From Chloroflexus sp. Y-396-1 (lineage in GTDB: Bacteria > Chloroflexota > Chloroflexia > Chloroflexales > Chloroflexaceae), in NCBI RefSeq assembly GCF_000516515.1, contig NZ_KI911784.1, forward strand, positions 2,636,881 through 2,700,880: DNA of 64,000 nucleotides. Direction: 5' to 3'. A program made the translations under genes and the position numbers. The notes beneath the pieces were generated by a model. The model searched no databases, had not been told where the DNA came from, and was given only the letters and a program-made list of their open reading frames with translations. Positions 42,187 to 54,465 of the stretch are shown here, in pieces (position 1 is the stretch's first letter; each line of letters begins with the position of its first letter).

Positions 42187-42962
42187 CGCGTCTGGCGGCC
42201 CTCACCTTCCCCCCCAACCCCCCTTCCTCTCCCACGCTGCGGGAGAGGAAGGGGGGCGGGCGGCCCTCACCTTCCCCCTAACCCCCCTTCCTCTCCCACG
42301 CTGCGGGAGAGGAAGGGGGAGGGATTATACCCCGCGCCTTCCCTCGGCCCCCTGCCGCTTCCACTAAGGGAGTGGAAGCGGGGGTTTGCGTAGCCGTAGC
42401 GATTCTGCGCCGGCGTCTGTCAACGATACCGAGGCCACGACCACCCCTCTCCCGCAGCGCGGGAGAGGGGCTGGGGGTGAGGGCCGTCCGCACCTTCCCC
42501 CGGCCCCCTGCCACCTCCACTAAGGGAGCGGAAGCGGGGGGTTAGCGTAGCCGTAGCAATTCTGCGCCAGCGTCTGTCAACGATACCAAGACCACGACCA
42601 CCCCGCTCCCGCAGCGCGGGAGCGGGGCCGGGGGTGAGGGCGGCCCGCACCTTCCCCTGGCCCCCTGCCGCTCCTCCACGGGAAGCGGAAGAGGGGGGAG
42701 GTTCGCGTCGCAGTGGCGATTCTGCGCCGGCGTCTGTCAACGATACCGAGGCCACGACCACCCCTCTCCCGCAGCGCGGGAGAGGGGCCGGGGGTGAGGG
42801 CCGTCCACACCTTCCCCTGGCCCCCTGCCGCTCCTCCACGGGAAGCGGAAGAGGGGGGAGGTTCGCGTCGCAGTGGCGATTCTGCACCGGCGTCTGTCAA
42901 CGATACCGAGGCCACGACCACCCCTCTCCCGCAGCGCGGGAGAGGGGCTGGGGGTGAGGACC
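42187..42962. repeat. Array of about 159-bp tandem repeats with hairpins
   Basis: The motif TTCTGCGCCGGCGTCTGTC followed by AACGATACC recurs at about 42402, 42560, 42719 and 42879, giving a 158-160 bp period. Each unit holds one perfect hairpin with arms CCCCTCTCCCGC and GCGGGAGAGGGG (for example 42444-42470) and a CCACTAAGGGAG- or CTCCACGGGAAG-type stem. Two further hairpins (CTTCCTCTCCC/GGGAGAGGAAG) precede the array at 42229-42320. The array fills the space between the convergent ilvE and hydrolase genes and could stop transcription from both sides. Open frames through it are artefacts of the repeat. Confidence 0.85.
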
Positions 42963-42971
42963 GTTTCCTCT

Positions 42972-43724
42972 CTACTCAATCAACCCATGTTCAGCCAGAA
43001 ATCGGCCAACCCGAGCACGGAAGGCATCGGGATTACGCCAGGCAACTAGATGCCCAGCCTCTGGCTCGTAAACGATGCGTGCGCCGCGAATGCCGACCGC
43101 AACCGCACGAGCCTGCTGATCGGGAACGAAGGGGTCTTTTCCACCGTGAAAGATGATTGTTGGCACCCGAATCTGATCAAGACACGGCGTGACCAGAGCT
43201 TCTTGCGCCGCGAGTTGTTCGATCACCGACTCAACACCGGCGTTAAGTATTGGCCACCAGTCGGCGCCGTGCTGGGTAGCCATGTAGCGGTGCCAGCTTG
43301 GCGACATACTGGCAGTTGCTTGCCGATGCGCTTCGTATGTTGCCCGCGTAACTCGGGCAAACACGCCATCTAAGATCAGGGCAGCGATAACCTCTGGCCG
43401 AATACAGACAGCATTTAGCGCGCTAATCCCACCGGCGCTCATCCCGAAGACCGGCACCGGCGCCTGAAATAGGCCGGCTAACGCATCGGCCACTGCCTCA
43501 CCTTGCATAAGAAAGTAGCGTGGCGTAAACAAATCTGGCGGTCGTGCCGATCCGCCGTGCCCCAACAAATCGAATGAGTAGACAGTAAACTGGTCGGCGA
43601 AGCGTTGGGCCAGCCGTACCTGTGTGGCGGCACTATAGGTGTTTCCGTGCAGTAGCACGAATGGTGGACCATTACCAACGGTTAGATAGTGTACAAGACC
43701 ATGACGAGTAGGGATACTGCTCAT
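42972..43724 (-). CDS. Alpha/beta hydrolase
   Basis: A 250-residue serine hydrolase. VLLHGNTYSAA supplies the oxyanion hole, FGMSAGGISAL the nucleophile Ser, FHGGKDPFVP the acid Asp and EAGHLVAW the His, so the triad is complete. FDLLGHGGSARP is the typical second loop. No signal peptide is present, so it is cytoplasmic. The ATG at 43724 is preferred; six upstream codons beginning with TTG are open. It faces ilvE across the hairpin array and runs away from the DUF11 locus. The substrate (ester, lactone or epoxide) cannot be told. Confidence 0.85.
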   Translation of the reverse strand: MSSIPTRHGLVHYLTVGNGPPFVLLHGNTYSAATQVRLAQRFADQFTVYSFDLLGHGGSARPPDLFTPRYFLMQGEAVADALAGLFQAPVPVFGMSAGGISALNAVCIRPEVIAALILDGVFARVTRATYEAHRQATASMSPSWHRYMATQHGADWWPILNAGVESVIEQLAAQEALVTPCLDQIRVPTIIFHGGKDPFVPDQQARAVAVGIRGARIVYEPEAGHLVAWRNPDAFRARVGRFLAEHGLIE

Positions 43725-43851: not shown

Positions 43852-46575
43852 ATGCAGCATCGTCATGTAGCAGTTACCTTTTTAGTGATACTAACCTTGA
43901 TGATTGCTACGATAGGTCGTGGTAGTATTGTGGAAGCAGTGGTAGTTCCGCCGATAAGCACGCCATTTTACATTCAAACATCCAGTCCCAGTCGTGCACT
44001 TAATATTGGTGACTGGTACACCAATTCAAGTTTAGGTGCAGGCAATGGGTACCACTATTTTACCCTGCATGTTCCCTGTGGTTGGCCTTCAAGTACACCG
44101 ATACATATTGATCTCTTCCACCCCGATCTGAATTCAACAAGTGGCAGTGGTGTAAGCGACGAGATTACTACGGTCGGAACGACTGTCTTCGAAGTGTACC
44201 AACCAGGAACGACTCTGAATCCGCCAATTCAACCTGCTCCAGCGGCATCAGGTTCACTGTCCCAGGTGACATACAATCCGAACACCGTTGGTCCGTATTG
44301 GACACGATTTTTCACAATTACGGCACCGGTAACGTGCGGCACCTACATCCTACGTGCTCAAACCAACGGTAATGCCGATAATAGCTGGCAACTACGCTTT
44401 GGGAGCGATAACGATAACGATCCTAATACCTTACCCCCTCTCAATTATGATAACCCGGATGCCTTACCGGGAACTGGTGATGAGCTGACGATTGGCCTTT
44501 CTGCAACAACCTTTCAGCACGATGCTGCTGGTACTCCTTGTCTAACCCTGCATGAATACGTTGCACCGGGCCAAAGCAGTGTTACGTTTCACAATTTTGA
44601 TATGGATCTTCAGACCAGGGTCAGATACTATTCACCAATTGATACGTACGATCCACTAGGATTGAGCGGTGGTACTGCCGGTACGTTATCAGGAAATGCA
44701 GTTTGGAATAATAGTAATTCTTCCTCTCGTGTTGGTGATACGATAGCTAATCCCGAACCCGGCTGGTGGCGAATCGTGTCGTGTATTAATAATAACAACC
44801 AATTCATCCAGGAAGGTCAAACGAGTGTTCTCTCATACATGGACCCGCCGCCAGCTCCGCATCTCACGTTGAGCAAAACCGATGGCGTAACAGTTGCTGC
44901 GCCAGGTGATATTATCACCTACACCTTGACTTTCACCAATACAGGTAATCCGATTACGTCGCCGGGTGCGGCGTACAATGTAGTACTGACCGATACGTTG
45001 CCTGCGCAGGTCATTTACATCAACCATGATGCCCCAAACGGCATCTTAACCCATAGTTCAGGAACGGTGGTATACACTCGTACTAATCAGCTCAATTACA
45101 ATGAGACGGATACCATCACCATCACGGTGCAAGTTGATCCATCGCTTACCAGTACAGTTACTTTTACCAACACTGCCGTACTCGATTATCAAGATGGGTT
45201 TGGTAATCAATATCCTCAGGTACAGGCCAGCGATAGCGTTACAATTAATCAACCAAACATTGAGCTGAGCAAGACCGACGGGGTGACGACGGCGGCGCCG
45301 GGGCAGACGTTGACCTACACGCTGACGTTTACCAATACGGGGGCCGGCGCGGCGCACAATATCACGATCAGCGATCCGCTGCCGACGGGGGTGAGTTATC
45401 AGAGCTGTGACGCCGGTGCGTTGGGCGGGACGTGTAGTGCGAGCGGCGGCACGGTGACGTTTACGCTGACCAACCCGTTGGCGGCCGGAGGGAGCGCCAG
45501 CGTGACGATTACCGGTGTGGTCACCGCTGGTGGTCCGGCAACGCTCACCAACACGGCGACGCTGAATTACACCGATAGCGCAAACAATCCCCGTCCGTCG
45601 GTGACGGCCAGTGATACCACAACGGTGCCGGCGCAGCCGAATATCGTGCTGAGCAAGACCGACGGAGTGACCACCGCTGCGCCAGGACAGTCGTTGACCT
45701 ACACGCTCACCTTTACCAATACGGGGGCAGGCGCGGCGCACAACATCATGATCAGCGATGTGCTTCCCAGTGAACTCATGTTGCCCATCTGTACGCCTGG
45801 TAGTCTGGGTGGTACCTGTAGTGTAAGTGGGAGTAGCGTCACGTACACTGCGCCAACGACGGCCACATTAGGCGTGGGACAAAGCAGCACGATTACGATC
45901 ACGGCGCAGGTACCCATCACGTTGACCAGCGGCGCGACGCTGACCAACACGGCGACGCTGAATTACACCGATAGCGGGGGGAATGCGCGGACGCCGGTGA
46001 CGGCAAGTGATACCACGACGGTGCCGGCGCAGCCGACCATTGAGCTGAGCAAGACCGACGGGGTGACGACGGCGGCGCCGGGGCAGACGTTGACCTACAC
46101 GCTGACGTTTACCAATACGGGGGCCGGCGCGGCGCACAATATCACGATCAGCGATCCGCTGCCGACGGGGGTAAGTTATCAGAGCTGTGATGCCGGTGCG
46201 TTGGGCGGGACGTGTAGTGTGAGCGGCGGCACGGTGACGTTTACCCTGACCAACCCGTTGGCGGCCGGAGGGAGCGCCAGCGTGACGATTACCGGTGTGG
46301 TCACCGCTGGTGGTCCGGCAACGCTCACCAACACGGCGACGCTGAATTACACCGATAGCGGGGGGAATGCGCGGACGCCGGTGACGGCAAGTGATACCAC
46401 GACGGTGCCGGCGCAGCCGACCATTGAGCTGAGCAAGACCGACGGGGGTGACGACGGCGGCGCCGGGGCAGACGTTGACCTACACGCTGACGTTTACCAA
46501 TACGGGGGCCGGCGCGGCGCACAATATCACGATCAGCGATCCGCTGCCGACGGGGGTAAGTTATCAGAGCTGTGA
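43852..46575 (+). CDS. Secreted DUF11-repeat surface protein, 5' part up to a one-base frameshift
   Basis: A signal peptide (residues 1-30, hydrophobic core VTFLVILTLMIATI) leads an exported protein. Residues about 35-335 form a unique domain rich in Asn, Thr and Pro. From 44863 onward come DUF11 (conserved repeat domain) units, each starting LSKTDGVTxAAPGQ and containing TLTFTNTGAGAAHNI. The frame is broken where a run of four G becomes five (46444-46448): the last 40 codons, after SKTDG, are out of frame and end at 46575. Without the extra base the gene would run to 48397, about 1,515 residues. The ATG at 43852 follows GGGAG by eight bases. It probably makes a long rod at the cell surface. 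Confidence 0.8.
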   Translation: MQHRHVAVTFLVILTLMIATIGRGSIVEAVVVPPISTPFYIQTSSPSRALNIGDWYTNSSLGAGNGYHYFTLHVPCGWPSSTPIHIDLFHPDLNSTSGSGVSDEITTVGTTVFEVYQPGTTLNPPIQPAPAASGSLSQVTYNPNTVGPYWTRFFTITAPVTCGTYILRAQTNGNADNSWQLRFGSDNDNDPNTLPPLNYDNPDALPGTGDELTIGLSATTFQHDAAGTPCLTLHEYVAPGQSSVTFHNFDMDLQTRVRYYSPIDTYDPLGLSGGTAGTLSGNAVWNNSNSSSRVGDTIANPEPGWWRIVSCINNNNQFIQEGQTSVLSYMDPPPAPHLTLSKTDGVTVAAPGDIITYTLTFTNTGNPITSPGAAYNVVLTDTLPAQVIYINHDAPNGILTHSSGTVVYTRTNQLNYNETDTITITVQVDPSLTSTVTFTNTAVLDYQDGFGNQYPQVQASDSVTINQPNIELSKTDGVTTAAPGQTLTYTLTFTNTGAGAAHNITISDPLPTGVSYQSCDAGALGGTCSASGGTVTFTLTNPLAAGGSASVTITGVVTAGGPATLTNTATLNYTDSANNPRPSVTASDTTTVPAQPNIVLSKTDGVTTAAPGQSLTYTLTFTNTGAGAAHNIMISDVLPSELMLPICTPGSLGGTCSVSGSSVTYTAPTTATLGVGQSSTITITAQVPITLTSGATLTNTATLNYTDSGGNARTPVTASDTTTVPAQPTIELSKTDGVTTAAPGQTLTYTLTFTNTGAGAAHNITISDPLPTGVSYQSCDAGALGGTCSVSGGTVTFTLTNPLAAGGSASVTITGVVTAGGPATLTNTATLNYTDSGGNARTPVTASDTTTVPAQPTIELSKTDGGDDGGAGADVDLHADVYQYGGRRGAQYHDQRSAADGGKLSEL

Positions 46576-47599
46576 TGCCGGTGCGTTGGGCGGGACGTGT
46601 AGTGTGAGCGGCGGCACGGTGACGTTTACCCTGACCAACCCGTTGGCGGCCGGAGGGAGCGCCAGCGTGACGATTACCGGTGTGGTCACCGCTGGTGGTC
46701 CGGCAACGCTCACCAACACGGCGACGCTGAATTACACCGATAGCGGGGGGAATGTACGGACGCCGGTGACGGCAAGTGATACCACGACGGTGCCGGCGCA
46801 GCCGACCATTGAGCTGAGCAAGACCGACGGGGTGACGACGGCGGCGCCGGGGCAGACGTTGACCTACACGCTGACGTTTACCAATACGGGGGCCGGCGCG
46901 GCGCACAATATCACGATCAGCGATGTGCTTCCTAGTGCACTTATTTCTGCCACCTGTACGCCTGGTAGTTTGGGTGGCACCTGTACGGTGAGTGGGAGTA
47001 GCGTCACGTACACTGCGCCAACGACGGCCACATTGGGTGCGGGACAAAGCAGCACGATTACGATCACGGCGCAGGTACCCATTACGTTGACCAGCGGCGC
47101 GACGCTGACCAACACGGCGACGCTGAATTACACCGATAGCGGGGGGAATGTACGGACGCCGGTGACGGCAAGTGATACCACGACGGTGCCGGCGCAGCCG
47201 ACCATTGAGCTGAGCAAGACCGACGGGGTGACGACGGCGGCGCCGGGGCAGACGTTGACCTACACGCTGACGTTTACCAATACGGGGGCCGGTGCGGCGC
47301 ACAACATCACGATCAGCGATGTGCTTCCCAGTGAACTCATGTTGCCCATCTGTACGCCTGGTAGTCTGGGTGGTACCTGTAGTGTAAGTGGGAATAGCGT
47401 CACGTACACTGCGCCAACGACGGCCACATTAGGCGTGGGACAAAGCAGCACGATTACGATCACGGCGCAGGTACCCATCACGTTGACCAGCGGCGCGACG
47501 CTGACCAACACGGCGACGCTGAATTACACCGATAGCGGGGGGAATGCGCAGACGCCGGTGACTTCGAGCGATACAACGCGCATACCTGGGCCGACGGCG
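45259..47599 (+). repeat. Six near-identical DUF11-coding tandem repeats of 384/396 bp
   Basis: Repeat starts (ATTGAGCTGAGCAAG or a variant) fall at 45259, 45643, 46039, 46423, 46808 and 47204, ending at 47599. Two unit types occur. The 384-bp type A (with DPLPTGVSYQSCDAGALG) is at 45259, 46039 and 46423. The 396-bp type B (with DVLPSxLMLPICTPGSLG or close) is at 45643, 46808 and 47204. The order is A-B-A-A-B-B. Copies of the same type differ at few bases over hundreds of positions, including silent sites, so they were copied recently. The spacing 46423 to 46808 is 385, one too many, which locates the inserted G. Confidence 0.88.
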
Positions 47600-48397
47600 G
47601 TTGATCTGATCAAGCGAGCTACCCTGGTTGTTGATAGTAACAATGACGATCGAGCTGGCTCAGGTGATGTTATTGAATATACTATCGTCATGACGAATAC
47701 CGGCTCAGAGCCAGCCCTCCTGCTCACGGTTGAGGATACTCCTGATGTGAATACTACGCTGATCGTGGGGAGCGTATTGGTCACCCCTACAACCGCAGTA
47801 GTGGTGAGTGGTAACAGTCTCGGCGATACTGCTGTTGAAGTTACCCTCAACGAGCTAGCGATCAATGATAGCCTCACGATTACGTTCCGCGTGCAAGTAA
47901 ATGCACCTCTCCCTGACAACGTGAGTGAAATTGCTAATCAGGCGACGGCCAGCGGCATGAACATCTCATCAACACCGAGTGACGATCCAACAACAACTAT
48001 TACTGACGATCCAACCCGCCTACGAACACCTCCGCCCGGAGGCCCACCAACGGCCATTATCCTGACCGAGTTCCGCCTGGTCGCAACGAGCACCGGCTGG
48101 GACATCCTCTGGTCGACTGGTGCTGAAGTAAATACTCGCGGGTTTCTGATCTATCGTTCGACCGCTAGCCGTGATAAAGCACAACTACTGACCCCGCTTC
48201 CCATCCCGGCCCGTGGCAGTAGTACAAGTGGTGCGAGCTATCGCTTCAGCGACCAGACGGCGCTAGTAGGAATTGACTACTCGTACTGGTTGGTAGAGAT
48301 CGAGCTAGATGGTACATTTACCGAATATGGTCCGTTACAGTCTCGTGGTACGATAAACCAGCAATATCGCTACTTCATACCGCTGATCGGGCGTTAA
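46448..48397 (+). CDS. DUF11-repeat surface protein, 3' part after the frameshift
   Basis: The downstream frame continues the same protein: three more complete DUF11 units and a more diverged last one (from 47600, VDLIKRATLVVDSNNDDRAG). A C-terminal domain of about 105 residues with ILTEFRLVATSTGWDILWST and GFLIYRSTASRDKAQLL follows; it is fibronectin-III-like and common at the end of Chloroflexi surface proteins. The very end is YRYFIPLIGR. No start site belongs to this half, so if the inserted base is real this part would not be made except by frameshifting or slippage. Read together with 43852-46575 as one gene. Confidence 0.8.
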   Translation: MTTAAPGQTLTYTLTFTNTGAGAAHNITISDPLPTGVSYQSCDAGALGGTCSVSGGTVTFTLTNPLAAGGSASVTITGVVTAGGPATLTNTATLNYTDSGGNVRTPVTASDTTTVPAQPTIELSKTDGVTTAAPGQTLTYTLTFTNTGAGAAHNITISDVLPSALISATCTPGSLGGTCTVSGSSVTYTAPTTATLGAGQSSTITITAQVPITLTSGATLTNTATLNYTDSGGNVRTPVTASDTTTVPAQPTIELSKTDGVTTAAPGQTLTYTLTFTNTGAGAAHNITISDVLPSELMLPICTPGSLGGTCSVSGNSVTYTAPTTATLGVGQSSTITITAQVPITLTSGATLTNTATLNYTDSGGNAQTPVTSSDTTRIPGPTAVDLIKRATLVVDSNNDDRAGSGDVIEYTIVMTNTGSEPALLLTVEDTPDVNTTLIVGSVLVTPTTAVVVSGNSLGDTAVEVTLNELAINDSLTITFRVQVNAPLPDNVSEIANQATASGMNISSTPSDDPTTTITDDPTRLRTPPPGGPPTAIILTEFRLVATSTGWDILWSTGAEVNTRGFLIYRSTASRDKAQLLTPLPIPARGSSTSGASYRFSDQTALVGIDYSYWLVEIELDGTFTEYGPLQSRGTINQQYRYFIPLIGR

Positions 48398-48411
48398 GGG
48401 GTTATACAACC

Positions 48412-49863
48412 ATGAGACAGACCATCTGGCACATCCTACCAATCATCGCAGGGGGTATGTTACTTATCGTGGTATCCCTCTCGGTTTTACCAACAGGGTC
48501 AGTGCGTGCTGAACGACCAATGAGTATTACCGAAACATCAACGGCAGAGCCGCCAACTCGGACACCGACGGAGAGTGGGGGCGGGGGCACGCCAACGCCT
48601 ACTAACACGTCGACGGGGAGTGGAAGCACGCCGACACCCACCAACACACCGACGGGGAGTGGGGGCGGGAGCACGCCGACACCCACCAACACACCGACGG
48701 GGAGTGGGGGCGGAAGCACGCCGACACCCACCAACACACCGACGGGGAGTGGGGGCGGAAGCACGCCGACACCCACCAACACACCGACGGGGAGTGGGGG
48801 CGGGGGCACGCCGACACCCACCAACACACCGACGGGGAGTGGGGGCGGGAGCACGCCGACACCCACCAACACACCGACGGGGAGTGGGGGCGGGAGCACG
48901 CCGACACCCACCAACACACCGACGGGGAGTGGGGGCGGGAGCGACGGCACGCCCACGCCGACTTCCACCATTCCCATTCCTGATTTGTCACTGACCAAAT
49001 CGGTTGCGCCATCGGTGGCTCAGGTCGGCGATGAGGTGGTCTACACGCTTACACTCAGGAATGTCGGTAGCGCACCGGCAAATGATGTCACGATTGATGA
49101 CCCACTCCCAGCGTTCCTACGCTTGCTGGAAGCCAATACGTCACGTGGTACGGTACAACTAGACGGGAATCGGGTACAGGTGGCGATCTCGGTCGTTGCG
49201 CCAGGCGAGCAGGTTATTGTGACCATTCGGGCACAACTGCTGGCAGAACCTATTCCGCCAGCCAATCAGAATGTTGCCACCGCACGCACCAGTAGTACCG
49301 AAATCACGACCGACAACAACACGAGCAGCGCGACGATCCTGCCAGTGTTACCCGACCTGGCGCTGACCAAATCGGTTGCGCCATCGGTGGCTCAGGTCGG
49401 TGATGAGGTCGTCTATACCCTCACGCTCAGGAATGTTGGGGGTGCACCGGCAAATGATGTCACGCTGCTCGATAATCTGCCATCGTTCCTACGTCTGATT
49501 AGGGTCACGACAACGGCTGGTAATGCGCAATCAGATGGCAACCAGGTGACAGTAACGGTGCCTGTTGTTAATCCTGGAGAGACGGTGGTGGTACAGATTA
49601 CCGCGCAAGTTCTTATCCCACCAATTGCCCCTGATAATGTGAATGTGGCAACTGTGCGAACCAGTGATAGCGAGATAACAACAGCGAATAACAGTGATAG
49701 TGCGAGAATCGGTCAAAACGGTATCCACGTTGATACTGACATCTCACCAGCAATCTTGCCACGAACCGGTGGTCATCTAGGCCGTTCACTATTGTCTTTG
49801 ATCGGCTTTGCGCTGATCGCTATCGGGCTTGGTGCACTGGTACAGCGTCGGTCGTCGGGTTAG
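48412..49863 (+). CDS. Secreted DUF11 protein with Pro/Thr/Gly repeat stalk and LPxTG sorting signal
   Basis: A 483-residue exported protein. A signal peptide (1-33, core [16 protein letters not shown]) is followed by a stalk of 15-residue repeats, [15 protein letters not shown] (56-173). Two DUF11 units each begin [20 protein letters not shown]. The tail is a complete sortase signal: LPRTG at 449-453, a hydrophobic segment [18 protein letters not shown], and the basic end QRRSSG. The protein is therefore likely to be cut by a sortase and fixed to the cell surface. It starts 14 bp after the giant DUF11 gene, so the two share an operon. No sortase gene is in the window. Confidence 0.85.
48577..48930 (+). 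repeat. 45-bp tandem repeats encoding [15 protein letters not shown]
   Basis: Eight in-frame units lie head to tail, seven of 45 bp and one of 39 bp (lacking two Gly codons), followed by a partial unit. Copies are nearly identical; they differ mainly in GGGS against GGGG and one TST variant. The stretch gives the protein an extended, possibly glycosylated stalk, and copy number may vary between strains. Long open frames on the opposite strand are by-products. Confidence 0.85.
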
Positions 49864-49972
49864 CACGTACACAACCGGTAGTGTTGCCCCCTTCTCGTTC
49901 TGACCGGGCTTCCAAACAGTTAAGACGCAGAAGGGGGAGGATATTTTACCCACTCATCTGGAGATGATGACG

Positions 49973-52621
49973 ATGCGGCATTTTTTGCTTCTCTTCGTTG
50001 CCTTTGCCGTGGGAATTACGGTGGCTGCGCCAATGACCCTGGCACAGCCGACTAACGGTCTGGTACTGCGCTCGCGGGCCGATGGGGTTGAGGTCGCATG
50101 GCAGTGGAATGGTTCAACTGAACCGCAACGTTTTGTGCTGTATCTGCGTCCAGACGCTTCACCGCTACCGGTGCTGCATGAACTCCACGATCAGGCGATT
50201 GACGAACCGGTACCGGCGCCAGGCTTGCCAGTTGTTACCATCAATGGCGATCAATATGAGCCGCTGCCTGTATTTATCTCTGAGATGCCAACCGCACCGC
50301 TCCGGCTCATCGGTGAAGGGTATCAGCGTGGAAGATGGATGGCGCTTTACGAACTTGCCCCACACTATCAATCTGACACCGGGCCACGTCTGACGACACA
50401 GATACGGGCATTTATCGTTGGAGCAACGCTGCAACCGCCAACTGGCCTAACGTCTGTGCAATTGACTAGTGTTCCCGCGCCCGATCCGATAGCAGCACGT
50501 AACGCTTGGGTTATTGACGTTCAGGCTGAAGGCATCCAGGAAATCTCTGCCGATACCCTCCGTGCGCTTGGCCTTGACCTTACCCAGGTCGCGGTTCATC
50601 GCTTGCGCTTGCAGCGCGCCGGGATAAATCTACCGTTAGAGCCGATTTTTAGCGGTGATACAATGACCGCATTGCGGTTCTACGCCCCACCACCCGGTGA
50701 CCGTTGGTCGGCAAGCGATCGTTACTGGCTGACGGTTGAGGAGAGTGGTGGTACTGCCTTGATGGGTAGCCGAACTGCTCAACCACAGGCCGGTGATCAA
50801 CCGACCCTGGTGACAGTCAGCGGTGTCTGGCCAACCGATCCACCGACGCTGTACGAGTCAACGTTGGCCGGTCTCGATGGCGATCACTTTTTTAGTCGGC
50901 AGCTTGACGCTAGTGCTGGTGCACCGGTGAGTACAACCATCACGTTGACGCCAATGCTTCCTCTTACCAGTAGCGGCCCGATGAGTATCACGCTCGAACT
51001 GGCGACGCTGGTCAAACACAGTGGGACGCACCGCCTCCGCATTGCTGCTGGTACCTGGGAGACAACAGTTGCGTGGAGCGGTTCTGGCAGCCACCAGGTA
51101 ACAGTTGCCCTACCGTTTCCCACAACGACTATCACGCTGACACTTGATCCGGTCAGTGGGATTGATCGTGTTTATCTGGATCGGATGACCTTTGTTGCGC
51201 CAGTTCAGCTTGCGTTTACGACCGCTGGCGCCATCTTTACAGGTCAGAACGGACGTTTCGTCTACCCGTTAAGTGGTGCTCCAGCAGACGTTGCGGTATA
51301 TGACATTACCAATCCCTTGCAACCGGTACGGTTGCAGTTTAACGGCGCCGCCTTTGCCGATGATTCTCTTACACCGCATCGTTACTTGGTAACCGGTTCG
51401 GCAACGCTGCACACGCCGACGGTGGCGCGTCATCAACCGGTTGATCTGACCGTACCGGTCAATACCCGTGCCATTTACATCGCTCCCCGCGCATTTCTGG
51501 ATGATATAGCACCGTTGTTGGGTCATCGGCAGATGCAGGGCTGGTCGCCGGTTGCAGTTGCAGTTGAAGACATTTACGCTGGTTGGAGTGGCGGCGAGCC
51601 AGACCCACGCGCAATTCGGAATTTCTTGCGCTACGTAGTAACGACCTGGTCTCCTAATCTGATGGCGGCTATTCTGGTCGGTGATGGCAGTTCCGATCCA
51701 CGTGATTATCTCCAACGCGGCTGGCCAACCCTCATTCCGCCATACCTGGCCATGGTTGACCCATGGTTAGGTGAAACTGCATGTGAGACCTGTTTTGCGC
51801 AACTGGATGGTGATGATCCGATCAGCGAAACGTTCTTTCAGGCTGACATCTGGCTCGGTCGGCTGCCGGTGAAGACGAGCGCGGAATTGCGTCGTCTGGT
51901 GAGCAAGCTGCTGAGCTACGAGCAGAGTCGCGGAGTGTGGCAACGGCACGCTGTTTATCTGGCTGACAACCCTGATAGCAGTGGCGATTTTGCCGCTCTG
52001 CTTGAGGAAGCAATCGTGTTTCAACCACCGCAAACCAGTATTACCCGCGTATACTACCATCCTGACGGGGGTACAGGTCGGATTGCCGATGCTAACGTTG
52101 CCCGTGAGCAATCCTTTGCTGCGTTCAACCAGGGCGCAGGGTTGCTTGTCTATGCGGGTCATGGGTTACAGTTTCAGTGGGCATTTACTGCTATGGGCAT
52201 TTCAGAACCATTTCTCCTGAATGTTGATGCGGCAACCGATCTTCGCAACGCACCGGCACTGCCGGTCGTGTTGAGTATGACCTGTCTGACCGGTGCGTTT
52301 CAACATCCGTCGTTTCGTGGTACGACCATTGATGAGGCACTAGTGTTGAATCCGGAGGGTGGGGCGATTGCCACCTGGAGTTCAAGCGGCTTTGGCGTCG
52401 CTTATGGTCATCGCCAACTGCTGTTGGGCTTTGTTGAAGCCCTCTGGAGTACGCCTTCACCAACGCCACTCGGCCAGCTCGTTGCTGCCGGATATGCCCG
52501 TCTGGCTGCCAGTGGTGAAGCACCCGCTTCCCTTCGCACATTTCTGCTGCTTGGCGATCCACTCACCCCGGTAGCAGCACGCCCACTCTACCGATTGGAC
52601 GTACCGCTAGTGCAGCGATGA
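49973..52621 (+). CDS. Peptidase C25 (gingipain-like) secreted protein
   Basis: An 882-residue exported protein. The signal peptide ends near TLAQ (about 25). Residues 30-500 are beta-rich propeptide/adhesion-like domains. The C-terminal third is the C25 caspase-like fold: NTRAIYIAPRAFLDDIAPLL, AILVGDGSSDPRDYL, ADIWLGRLPVKTSAEL, catalytic His730 in VYAGHGLQFQWAF and Cys771 in LSMTCLTGAF. Both catalytic residues are kept. The end YRLDVPLVQR resembles the end of the giant DUF11 protein (YRYFIPLIGR). The ATG at 49973 fits GGAG nine bases before; two more ATGs lie just upstream. It may process or help place the neighbouring surface proteins; that role is inferred. Confidence 0.85.
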   Translation: MRHFLLLFVAFAVGITVAAPMTLAQPTNGLVLRSRADGVEVAWQWNGSTEPQRFVLYLRPDASPLPVLHELHDQAIDEPVPAPGLPVVTINGDQYEPLPVFISEMPTAPLRLIGEGYQRGRWMALYELAPHYQSDTGPRLTTQIRAFIVGATLQPPTGLTSVQLTSVPAPDPIAARNAWVIDVQAEGIQEISADTLRALGLDLTQVAVHRLRLQRAGINLPLEPIFSGDTMTALRFYAPPPGDRWSASDRYWLTVEESGGTALMGSRTAQPQAGDQPTLVTVSGVWPTDPPTLYESTLAGLDGDHFFSRQLDASAGAPVSTTITLTPMLPLTSSGPMSITLELATLVKHSGTHRLRIAAGTWETTVAWSGSGSHQVTVALPFPTTTITLTLDPVSGIDRVYLDRMTFVAPVQLAFTTAGAIFTGQNGRFVYPLSGAPADVAVYDITNPLQPVRLQFNGAAFADDSLTPHRYLVTGSATLHTPTVARHQPVDLTVPVNTRAIYIAPRAFLDDIAPLLGHRQMQGWSPVAVAVEDIYAGWSGGEPDPRAIRNFLRYVVTTWSPNLMAAILVGDGSSDPRDYLQRGWPTLIPPYLAMVDPWLGETACETCFAQLDGDDPISETFFQADIWLGRLPVKTSAELRRLVSKLLSYEQSRGVWQRHAVYLADNPDSSGDFAALLEEAIVFQPPQTSITRVYYHPDGGTGRIADANVAREQSFAAFNQGAGLLVYAGHGLQFQWAFTAMGISEPFLLNVDAATDLRNAPALPVVLSMTCLTGAFQHPSFRGTTIDEALVLNPEGGAIATWSSSGFGVAYGHRQLLLGFVEALWSTPSPTPLGQLVAAGYARLAASGEAPASLRTFLLLGDPLTPVAARPLYRLDVPLVQR

Positions 52622-52659
52622 TCTTATCCCTGTGTTCCTACGCAGGTCATCTGCACCAC

Positions 52660-53160
52660 TACCCCCTTCTTCTGCCATTTGGGAGAGGAAGGGGGGAGAG
52701 GGAAGGGGCGGTTGTCAGGTGTGCGGTGCGGTCGGGTGGGGCGGAGCACGGTCAGGGCACAACACCGCTAGGCATACACCCGCTCACCGATATGCGGGCC
52801 AGAGGCCCGCGCTCCCAGGAAAGAGCCATTTCTCCCTTCCTCTGCCATTTGGGAGAGGAAGGGGGGAGAGGGAAGGGGCGGTTGTCAGGTGTGCGGTGCG
52901 GTCGGGTGGGGCGGAGCACGGTCAGGGCACAACACCGCCAGGCTGCACCCGCTCACCGATATGCGGGCCAGAGGCCCGCGCTCCCAGGAAAGAGCCATTT
53001 CTCCCTTCCTCTGCCATTTGGGAGAGGAAGGGGGAGAGGGAAGGGGCGGTTGTCAGGTGTGCGGTGCGGTCGGGTGGGGCGGAGCACGGTCAGGGCACAA
53101 CACCGCCAGGCTGCACCCGCTCACCGATATGCGGGCCAGAGGCCCGCGCTCCCAGGCACT
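52660..53160. repeat. Three tandem copies of a 169-170 bp intergenic repeat
   Basis: The marker TCTGCCATTTGGGAGAGGAA occurs at 52671, 52841 and 53010. Each unit contains a TTCCTCT...AGAGGAAG stem, a long conserved GC-rich middle (with GTTGTCAGGTGTGCGGTGCG) and the palindrome GCGGGCCAGAGGCCCGCGC. The copies are almost identical. The block exactly fills the space between the convergent C25 peptidase and murA genes, as the 42-kb array does between ilvE and a hydrolase. Open frames of up to 240 codons through it repeat the same peptide and are not genes. Confidence 0.88.
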
Positions 53161-53172
53161 CGCTTTGAACTG

Positions 53173-54465
53173 CTACGACGATCGTACCCGTTCGATTCGT
53201 GCCCCAAGTGCTGCCAGCCGTTCATCAATCCGTTCGTAACCACGGTCAATCTGACCGATATTGTAAATCACGCTCCGCCCTTTCGCACAGAGCGCTGCCG
53301 TCACCATAGCCATACCGGCGCGAATGTCTGGGCTGGGTAGGCCATCGGGTTCTCCGTACAATTGCGAAGGCCCAACGACTACTGCACGATGGGGATCACA
53401 GAGTACAATCCGTGCCCCCATACCGATCAGACGGTCAACAAAGAACAAGCGGCTCTCAAACATCTTTTCATGAATGAGCACAGTGCCGCGGGCCTGGGTC
53501 GCAATCACAATGGCTGTACTGATCAGATCAGGATTAAAGCCAGGCCACGGCGCCGAGTCAATCTTTGGAATAGCACCGTGAAGATCGTGGCGTACCACCA
53601 ACTCCTGATCAGCCGGCACAATAATGTCTTCACCCTCTTCGCGCCACGTCACACCCAGTCGTCCGAACATAATCTTCGTCATCCGATGCTCACGTGGTCG
53701 TGCGCCGACAATCCGTAATTCGCTGCGCGTTACCGCCGCTAACCCGATTAGCGAACCTACTTCCATAAAGTCGGGGCCAATGGTGTAATCGGTGCCATGC
53801 AACCGACTGACCCCCTCGATTTCGAGCAGGTTTGTGCCGATACCGCTGATCCGTGCGCCCATACTGTTGAGAAAATGACATAAATCCTGTACGTGTGGTT
53901 CAGAAGCAGCGTTGGCGATGGTTGTATGACCTTCGGCAATACTCGCAGCAATGATCGCTTGTTCAGTGCCGGTGACACTCATCTCATCAAGAAAGATGTC
54001 GGCGCCCCGTAAGCCATCGGTCGTAAGAATGTAACTGCTGGGTGTGACCTCGACCTGCACGCCCAGCGCTGCCAGTGCCAACAAATGCGTATCGAGCCGA
54101 CGGCGTCCAATTGCATCGCCACCAGGACGGGGTAGCGTCACGTATCCTCGTCGGGCTAACAGCGGGCCGGCGAGCAACGGTGAGGTACGGATACGGCGCG
54201 CCAGTGTAGTGTCCGGTTCAACGGCTGCCAACTGATTGGCGCGCAAATGGACAACGTGGGCTTCTGGTCGGTCGATGTGCACACCGAGGTGGGCGAGCAA
54301 TGCTAATTTCGTGCGCACATCCCCAATGTCGGGAAGATTACGTATCGTTACCGGTTCATCGGTCAGCAGACTGGCGGCTAGCAAAGGCAGAGCCGCATTC
54401 TTGTTACCAGCGGGCCGAATAGCACCTGATAGGCGATGGCCGCCTTCGATCACAAAATAATCCAT
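53173..54465 (-). CDS. murA: UDP-N-acetylglucosamine 1-carboxyvinyltransferase
   Basis: First committed step of peptidoglycan synthesis: transfers enolpyruvate from PEP to UDP-GlcNAc. The 430 residues have Lys22-Asn23 in [14 protein letters not shown], the loop [15 protein letters not shown], and [13 protein letters not shown] with the catalytic Asp. In the loop PGGDAIGRR the residue that is Cys115 in E. coli is Asp117. This change is known in other bacteria to give natural resistance to fosfomycin while keeping activity. The ATG at 54465 has AGGA eight bases upstream; an ATG two codons earlier is also possible. The gene stands alone, facing the C25 gene across the triple repeat. Confidence 0.92.

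Follow-up and report, generated by a model that had tools for sequence, protein, structure and literature searches.

A short C-terminal tail on exported proteins of Chloroflexota, its co-distribution with C25 peptidases, and a locus of rod, stalk and peptidase

Several described systems sort exported proteins by what stands at their C-termini. In T9SS, gingipains are cargo, and PorU carries a CTD, i.e., the C25 peptidase of the system itself bears a sorting signal. The tripartite tags (LPXTG/sortase, PEP-CTERM/exosortase, GlyGly-CTERM/rhombosortase and MYXO-CTERM/myxosortase), as presented in the accessible parts of PMC11980579 and PMC3237569, join a C-terminal suffix to a peptidase. NCBIfam holds two models, NF050076 (sort_motif_YLP) and NF053834 (ultrashort_CTERM, 'YLP-box putative sorting motif-containing protein'), which describe the same kind of C-terminal tail as the one analysed here; their names give the motif and no partner enzyme. 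In the Chloroflexota, the available text of PMC13319060 describes GhlA of Litorilinea aerophila, which has 49 DUF11 domains in 6,596 aa, and reports grappling-hook filaments of Litorilinea that are formed by a DUF11 giant. The same portion of that source reports a diderm-like envelope in tomograms of Chloroflexus aggregans and Viridilinea, though diderm signature genes are missing. Such an envelope would be a setting in which a surface-sorting tag is useful.

Here, we analyse a locus in which a DUF11 rod and a C25 peptidase end in similar short tails. We think it probable that the tail is a short, helix-free C-terminal sorting tag on exported proteins, that the rod, the stalk encoded next to it and the C25 form a surface module, and that the C25 is the leading candidate for the partner of the tag. 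The window, i.e., the whole stretch of DNA that was analysed (64,000 nucleotides), is C1:2636881-2700880 of the genome called G000, a single contig of 4.89 Mb. Other G numbers denote the genomes compared, and L numbers individual stretches or loci within genomes.

A rod, a stalk and a C25 peptidase

Of three neighbouring genes on the plus strand, the first encodes a DUF11 rod, the second an LPxTG-anchored DUF11 stalk and the third a C25 peptidase (Table 1). All of them have signal-peptide-like starts, according to a simple hydropathy rule of our own that also counts some membrane proteins. The sequence-only reading had described three consecutive exported proteins, an LPxTG-DUF11 stalk between rod and peptidase, and similar tails on the first and last protein (FIPLIGR and DVPLVQR), and we found all of these as it gave them. 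The module is flanked on both sides by repetitive sequence (window 42400-43150 and 52618-53240), which appears as repeated residues in spurious frames. A search of PHROGs gave no matches.

Table 1. Features of the rod, stalk and C25 locus, in positions of the window.
Feature	Position	Strand	Remarks
Rod, N-terminal piece	43852..46575	+	signal-peptide-like start MQHRHVAVTFLVILTLMIATIGRG, 4 DUF11 stretches; out of frame after ~46448
Run of five G, frame-breaking extra base	46444..46448	+	four G in sister repeat copies
Rod, C-terminal piece	46448..48397	+	4 DUF11 stretches, then segment YSYWLVEIE..G...EYGP, then tail
Rod C-terminal tail FIPLIGR	48374..48394	+	
Stalk	48412..49863	+	signal-peptide-like start, repeats (14 protein letters not shown), 2 DUF11 stretches, LPxTG-type cell-wall anchor
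Stalk LPRTG sortase motif	49756..49770	+	then hydrophobic helix and RR
C25 peptidase (gingipain/PorU family)	49964..52621	+	885 aa, signal-peptide-like start, C25 domain residues 504-869, tailed end
C25 catalytic His733 (YAGHG)	52160..52162	+	kept in 33/33 aligned rows
C25 catalytic Cys774 (SMTC)	52283..52285	+	kept in 33/33 aligned rows
C25 C-terminal tail DVPLVQR	52598..52618	+	

Both pieces of the rod match DUF11 (PF01345, 3.3e-56 and 7.2e-47), and their open reading frames overlap in different frames because of one extra G: the repeat copy at 46432 (window 46432-46458) has five G where its four sister copies have four. Since the rod is a single frame in two relatives of the same genus (G118 and G198; 1384 and 995 aa), the split in G000 is either a sequencing error or a recent frameshift. 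The 'giant DUF11 rod' of the earlier reading is thus right as to its domains but not as to one open frame, this sequence having two that overlap. The rod ends in RYFIPLIGR, and the tail is kept in both same-genus relatives whose fetched stretch included the rod (G118, G198). The segment that precedes it is common to the large tailed proteins of relatives. In G061 (C1:97102, L038), a frame of 6426 aa also has this segment before its tail, and may possibly be a grappling-hook-like giant.

At its C-terminus, the stalk has LPRTGG followed by a hydrophobic helix and by RR, and the genome has four matches to sortase (PF04203). The LPxTG motif, the helix and the basic end, together with a sortase encoded by the same genome, mark an LPXTG sortase substrate, which the stalk is predicted to be. 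In nine other stalks, the position of LPRTG is taken by LPQTA, LPNTS, LPATS, LPGTS, LPNTG or LPGAG.

The third gene matches Peptidase_C25 (PF01364, 1.5e-83), and its H733/C774 dyad aligns with the His and Cys of PorU. With the domain and both residues in place it belongs to family C25, as had been proposed from the sequence. (An AlphaFold model made from a three-sequence alignment had a pLDDT of 33 and was not used.) The protein ends in RLDVPLVQR, and this tail is kept in all four relatives of the same genus (G118, G198, G086 and G052). In an alignment of 33 rows, two of which are duplicates of the same genome, the near relatives carry an R/K tail, except L295 and L300; own-genus ends and L061 were here counted as tailed, though a narrower scripted rule scored them 'none'. 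Six distinct C25s, including L300, have modified ends (YLPLTIADY, FLPLVAGD and others), and the tail is absent from eight. It behaves as a suffix: some C25s end at the catalytic domain without it.

Two further arrangements of C25 genes were observed. C25s of a second class, with lengths of about 1020-1110 aa, adjoin a sortase gene in the Herpetosiphonaceae (f2), at G110:C1:5931505-5933870 and in equivalents in G034, G043, G070, G078 and G102, and end in YLPLTIADY in G110 and YLPMLRLDH in G070. Close pairs of C25 genes, mostly a shorter and a longer one, occur in G088 (L063) and at places in G206, G212, G214, G231, G240, G242, G243 and G246; in the G088 pair, the long one is tailed and the short one is not.

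The stalk and the C25 are a conserved pair. An LPxT-type stalk lies directly 5' of a tailed C25 in 5/5 genomes of the own genus (g1), in two of the three seen in g2 (G012 and G024), in 2/2 in g3 and in G158, from another family; the stalk of G061 could not be resolved. The C25 of G118, G198, G061, G034, G110 and the distant G192 has as its neighbour a large tailed protein, whose C-terminal segment (YWLVE or YWLAD) is of the rod type. The f2 proteins have 2533 aa (G034) and 2585 aa (G110), in frames that reach the end of the stretch; the domains of rod-type large proteins were scanned within the window. Conservation of the gene neighbourhood beyond this strain had been set in advance as a refutation test, and we found it conserved in other genera and families too.

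The tail and its carriers

We searched for the tail with a strict DNA pattern, [YF]-x-P-[LF]-[IVM]-x-[RS]-stop in degenerate codons. It ends in TRR, which admits TGG (Trp), so that some matches are not at a stop. In G000, the pattern has 10 matches, versus one in the reversed control, and all 10 end frames of at least 313 aa with the expected residues. It replaced a first pattern (L/F before P) that missed both window tails and gave 16 matches versus 13 in the control.

To these counts we can add a sample of G000 made of 40 regularly spaced 20-kb stretches (800 kb, 16%), with 542 genes. A wide form of the tail ends 5 of the 159 signal-peptide/TM-like genes in the sample and none of the 383 others. 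Four of the five are convincing and one (L101) is doubtful. By chance, one expects a mean of 0.07 when the last seven residues are shuffled, and 0.10 over the 542 genes from the rate of internal matches. Three more genes of the sample (L081, L093 and L095) have a tail-like core with one to five extra residues after the Arg/Lys. The samples of G142 and G088 include previously matched stretches (G142 C1:400001-420000; G088 C3:980001-1000000 and C9:60001-80000), and only the regularly spaced G000 sample is therefore counted as unbiased. No tails were found in the sample of G126 (0/298 genes). Enrichment among exported proteins, the other refutation test set in advance, is thus what the G000 sample gives. 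The tail is real, not a product of chance, and extrapolation from the 16% sample suggests that roughly 25-30 exported proteins carry it in G000.

The tail makes up the last 7-10 residues of the protein, and neither a membrane helix nor a basic cluster follows its motif. The consensus of 43 collected tails is Y-[RQ]-[VIL]-[YF]-[LIV]-P-[LIM]-[VIT]-x-[RK], in which positions -7 to -1 were selected for and those further upstream were not, and in which several rows are orthologues. A Pfam scan of the tail ends gave nothing relevant. The carriers are otherwise unrelated: three S8 subtilases, two C11 clostripains, a CAP protein, kelch and beta-helix proteins, rods and the C25. Some tails are preceded by PT-rich linkers, others, in G142 and G015, by a choice-of-anchor Q domain. 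Two tailed peptidases are adjacent in G000 (L163:3124-11303), where a C11 clostripain with an M23 domain is followed by a kelch and S8 subtilase protein.

This variety bears on two alternative readings. That the tails resemble each other by chance, or by shared ancestry of the last domain, is extremely improbable: the relatives' rods do have a C-terminal segment in common, but the carriers are unrelated, some tails come after linkers, and the samples (5/159 vs 0/383 in G000, 0/298 in G126) argue against it. Alternatively, the tail could act by itself, e.g., as a donor beta strand for rod polymerisation or docking, and the C25 would cut precursors at Arg, by analogy with Rgp, which cuts type V pilin precursors at Arg. 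The alternating hydrophobic, strand-like consensus and the position of the rod next to the C25 are consistent with this. Since many enzymes are tailed as well as rods, a purely structural role in the rod is nevertheless insufficient, and we regard a self-acting tail as clearly unlikely.

Among the matches listed, the tail is mostly in Chloroflexota. We scanned a genome collection with one codon form of the pattern, which returned at least 120 stretches and is not a census. Chloroflexota labels are on 103 of 120 stretches among the matches listed (66/80 and 37 of the other 40), and frames of at least about 150 aa are ended by 81/103 Chloroflexota stretches and 7/17 others. These seven non-Chloroflexota ends, again among the matches listed, are in two bins labelled Gracilibacteria, one Scytonema and four cases judged by eye. 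The two bins labelled Candidatus Gracilibacteria (L215 and L218) have tailed proteins of the Chloroflexota type, and their label is probably wrong. The Scytonema scaffold (L188) has a frame of 1187 aa with the tail-like end QKLYLPLVSR, which is there by either transfer or contamination.

Tails and C25 peptidases across genomes

The C25 is present in 30 of 201 Chloroflexota genomes. Those with C25 have 182 strict tail matches versus 27 in the reversed control (143.9 Mb), whereas those without it have 44 versus 75 (560 Mb). All 17 genomes with at least four tail matches have a C25, compared with 13 of the 184 others; p-values of this association ignore the relatedness of the genomes. With a threshold of at least three matches, 20 of 22 genomes have a C25, and the two without are G142 and G080, the latter with three strict matches, one of which, when read, is only a 56-aa frame. 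The C11 is in 14/17 of the tail-rich genomes (at least four matches) versus 8/184 of the others, and sortase in 16/17 versus 122/184. Outside the class of the own genome, the C25 is in 4/4 tail-rich genomes versus 9/173 others, and the C11 is in 3/4 of the tail-rich.

Other searches gave similar contrasts. With the NCBI YLP model (E up to 10), all 18 genomes with at least eight matches have a C25, and 12 of the 30 genomes with C25 have fewer than eight, some only two or three. The genome search with NF053834 was not confined to protein ends and gave matches in 11 of 14 control genomes as well, which is why we use it only to contrast genomes with one another. Among the matches listed, 43 of 46 assemblies chosen by their tails have a C25 match, 42 of them over the cut-off. 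The 46, each taken once from 80 listed rows, comprise one Gracilibacteria bin and 45 assemblies with a Chloroflexota label; in some, the match ends no long frame, and at least three are identical to members of the 201. The sequence-only reading had proposed to test whether the tail is linked to C25 genes, and the link is statistically strong, in the 201 genomes and among the matches listed for the assemblies.

The association has counter-cases. In G142 (99% complete, four contigs), tailed proteins number at least four (one in L110, one in L155 and two in L154), and no C25 was found in it by profile or by a protein search that did find G158, its positive control. G037 (97%) has a tailed protein and no C25 by either search. 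Tails without C25 also occur in G015, G153, G225 and G226, which are weaker counter-cases because these bins may be incomplete. G217 has no C25, and its tail match is in a doubtful 101-aa frame; G211, G238 and G244 have only weak C25 profile matches, which the protein search did not find. Where tails occur without C25, either these lines have lost it or the tail has another reader. The earlier proposal that the C25 could cut the tail did not gain support, and G142 and G037 are tailed without detectable C25. G142, and the fact that the C25 is itself tailed, speak against the C25 as an obligatory processor; as a candidate processing enzyme it may still act on the tail, a suggestion that we make tentatively.

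It may well be that the C25 is only one of many tailed cargoes, as the gingipains are in T9SS, that an unrelated component reads the tail, and that the C25 tracks the tail because rich secretomes hold both. The C25 looks like cargo because it is tailed itself, other peptidases (C11 and S8) are tailed and the C11 also co-occurs with tails, and G142 and G037 keep tails without C25. However, the C25 fits the profile better than the C11 (17/17 vs 14/17, and 4/4 vs 3/4 outside the own class), and it forms a conserved pair with the stalk. The C11 was rejected as a reader on this poorer fit; two C11 peptidases carry the tail and therefore look like cargo.

A sortase was also considered as the reader, and was rejected as unspecific, G168 having no match. 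The corresponding reading is that the tail is a non-canonical sortase site, as [LIV]P[LM][VIT] resembles LPxT, and it can point to the variants LPITRR and LPMTTR, to the four sortases of G142 as well as of G000, and to the sortase gene next to the second C25 class in f2. Yet the motif is not followed by a membrane helix or basic cluster, sortases are in 122 of the 184 tail-poor genomes, and G168 lacks a sortase match despite a tailed 439-aa frame, which makes this reading highly unlikely.

We thus return to the tail as a sorting tag, whose function we infer. Once exported through Sec, a tailed protein would meet, outside the membrane, a surface machinery that would recognise the tail as a strand-like peptide and would retain or couple the protein in the outer layers of the envelope, which is atypical in Chloroflexota. 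As the enzyme that would cut or transfer tailed proteins, the leading candidate is the C25, a PorU relative with its active-site residues in place. The surface module would be composed of the tailed DUF11 rod, the sortase-anchored (LPxTG) DUF11 stalk and the tailed surface C25. A bolder and rather doubtful version is that a surface-sorting system of their own exists in the Chloroflexota, where some envelopes look diderm although BAM and LPS genes are missing. In this system, a PorU-like C25 would cut YLP-tailed proteins or transfer them onto the outer layer without a T9SS translocon, and the core would be the pair of stalk and C25. With the C25 profile and the conserved gene pair, the idea can be tested directly, and the tail would give a handle on the outer envelope layers of Chloroflexota and on how proteins are held there.

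Comparison with described sorting systems

The locus resembles T9SS in having a C25 peptidase whose His and Cys align with those of PorU and, if the tail is a sorting tag, in the recognition of cargo by its C-terminus and in a C25 that bears the signal itself. The T9SS signal is a folded domain, whereas the tail has about 10 residues. The SprA translocon (PF14349) was found in 0/201 Chloroflexota genomes and in 3/3 Bacteroidota used as a positive control, which rules out T9SS itself. The window C25 scores 158.7 bits with the PorU equivalog NF033707 (cut-off 420) and 84.8 with NF052324 (cut-off 450), i.e., below both cut-offs, and no T9SS CTD sorting-domain model was among the NCBIfam matches of the window proteins or of ten tail ends (E up to 10). 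Because SprA is absent, the gingipain-type analogy drawn in the sequence-only reading is limited to the C25 fold, which stands, and does not extend to the translocon.

The same reading knew of no described system with this combination, and here the NCBIfam YLP-box models, which match such tails, correct it. Three of the ten tail ends scanned are over a model cut-off, with weak E-values (0.007-0.12): L163 (15.6 vs 10) and L165 (12.5 vs 10), both in G000, and L171 in G088 (16 vs 15). The other seven, including the tails of the window rod and C25, match neither model. The motif has a name in NCBIfam, so that curators know of the tag, which is in use across much of the Chloroflexota and is registered as a putative sorting motif only. 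Literature searches (open-licence PMC only, no preprints) found no paper on the tail, and a description elsewhere is possible. The link to the C25 and the gene module seem to be new.

The window rod and the GhlA filament, as far as the latter is described in the available text of PMC13319060, are both from Chloroflexota and have serial DUF11 domains, of which the rod has about eight stretches; they are compared here by their DUF11 content. In the accessible parts of PMC11980579 and PMC3237569, the tripartite tags are likewise C-terminal suffixes on many unrelated exported proteins, and the phylogenetic profile of the tail similarly suggests a many-to-one pairing with a peptidase. Unlike them, the tail has no TM helix or basic cluster, and its pairing with the C25 is imperfect. 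Each of the prokaryotic sorting tags compared here has a membrane helix or consists of a folded domain, and a tag of about 10 residues that tracks a PorU-like peptidase would be a different solution.
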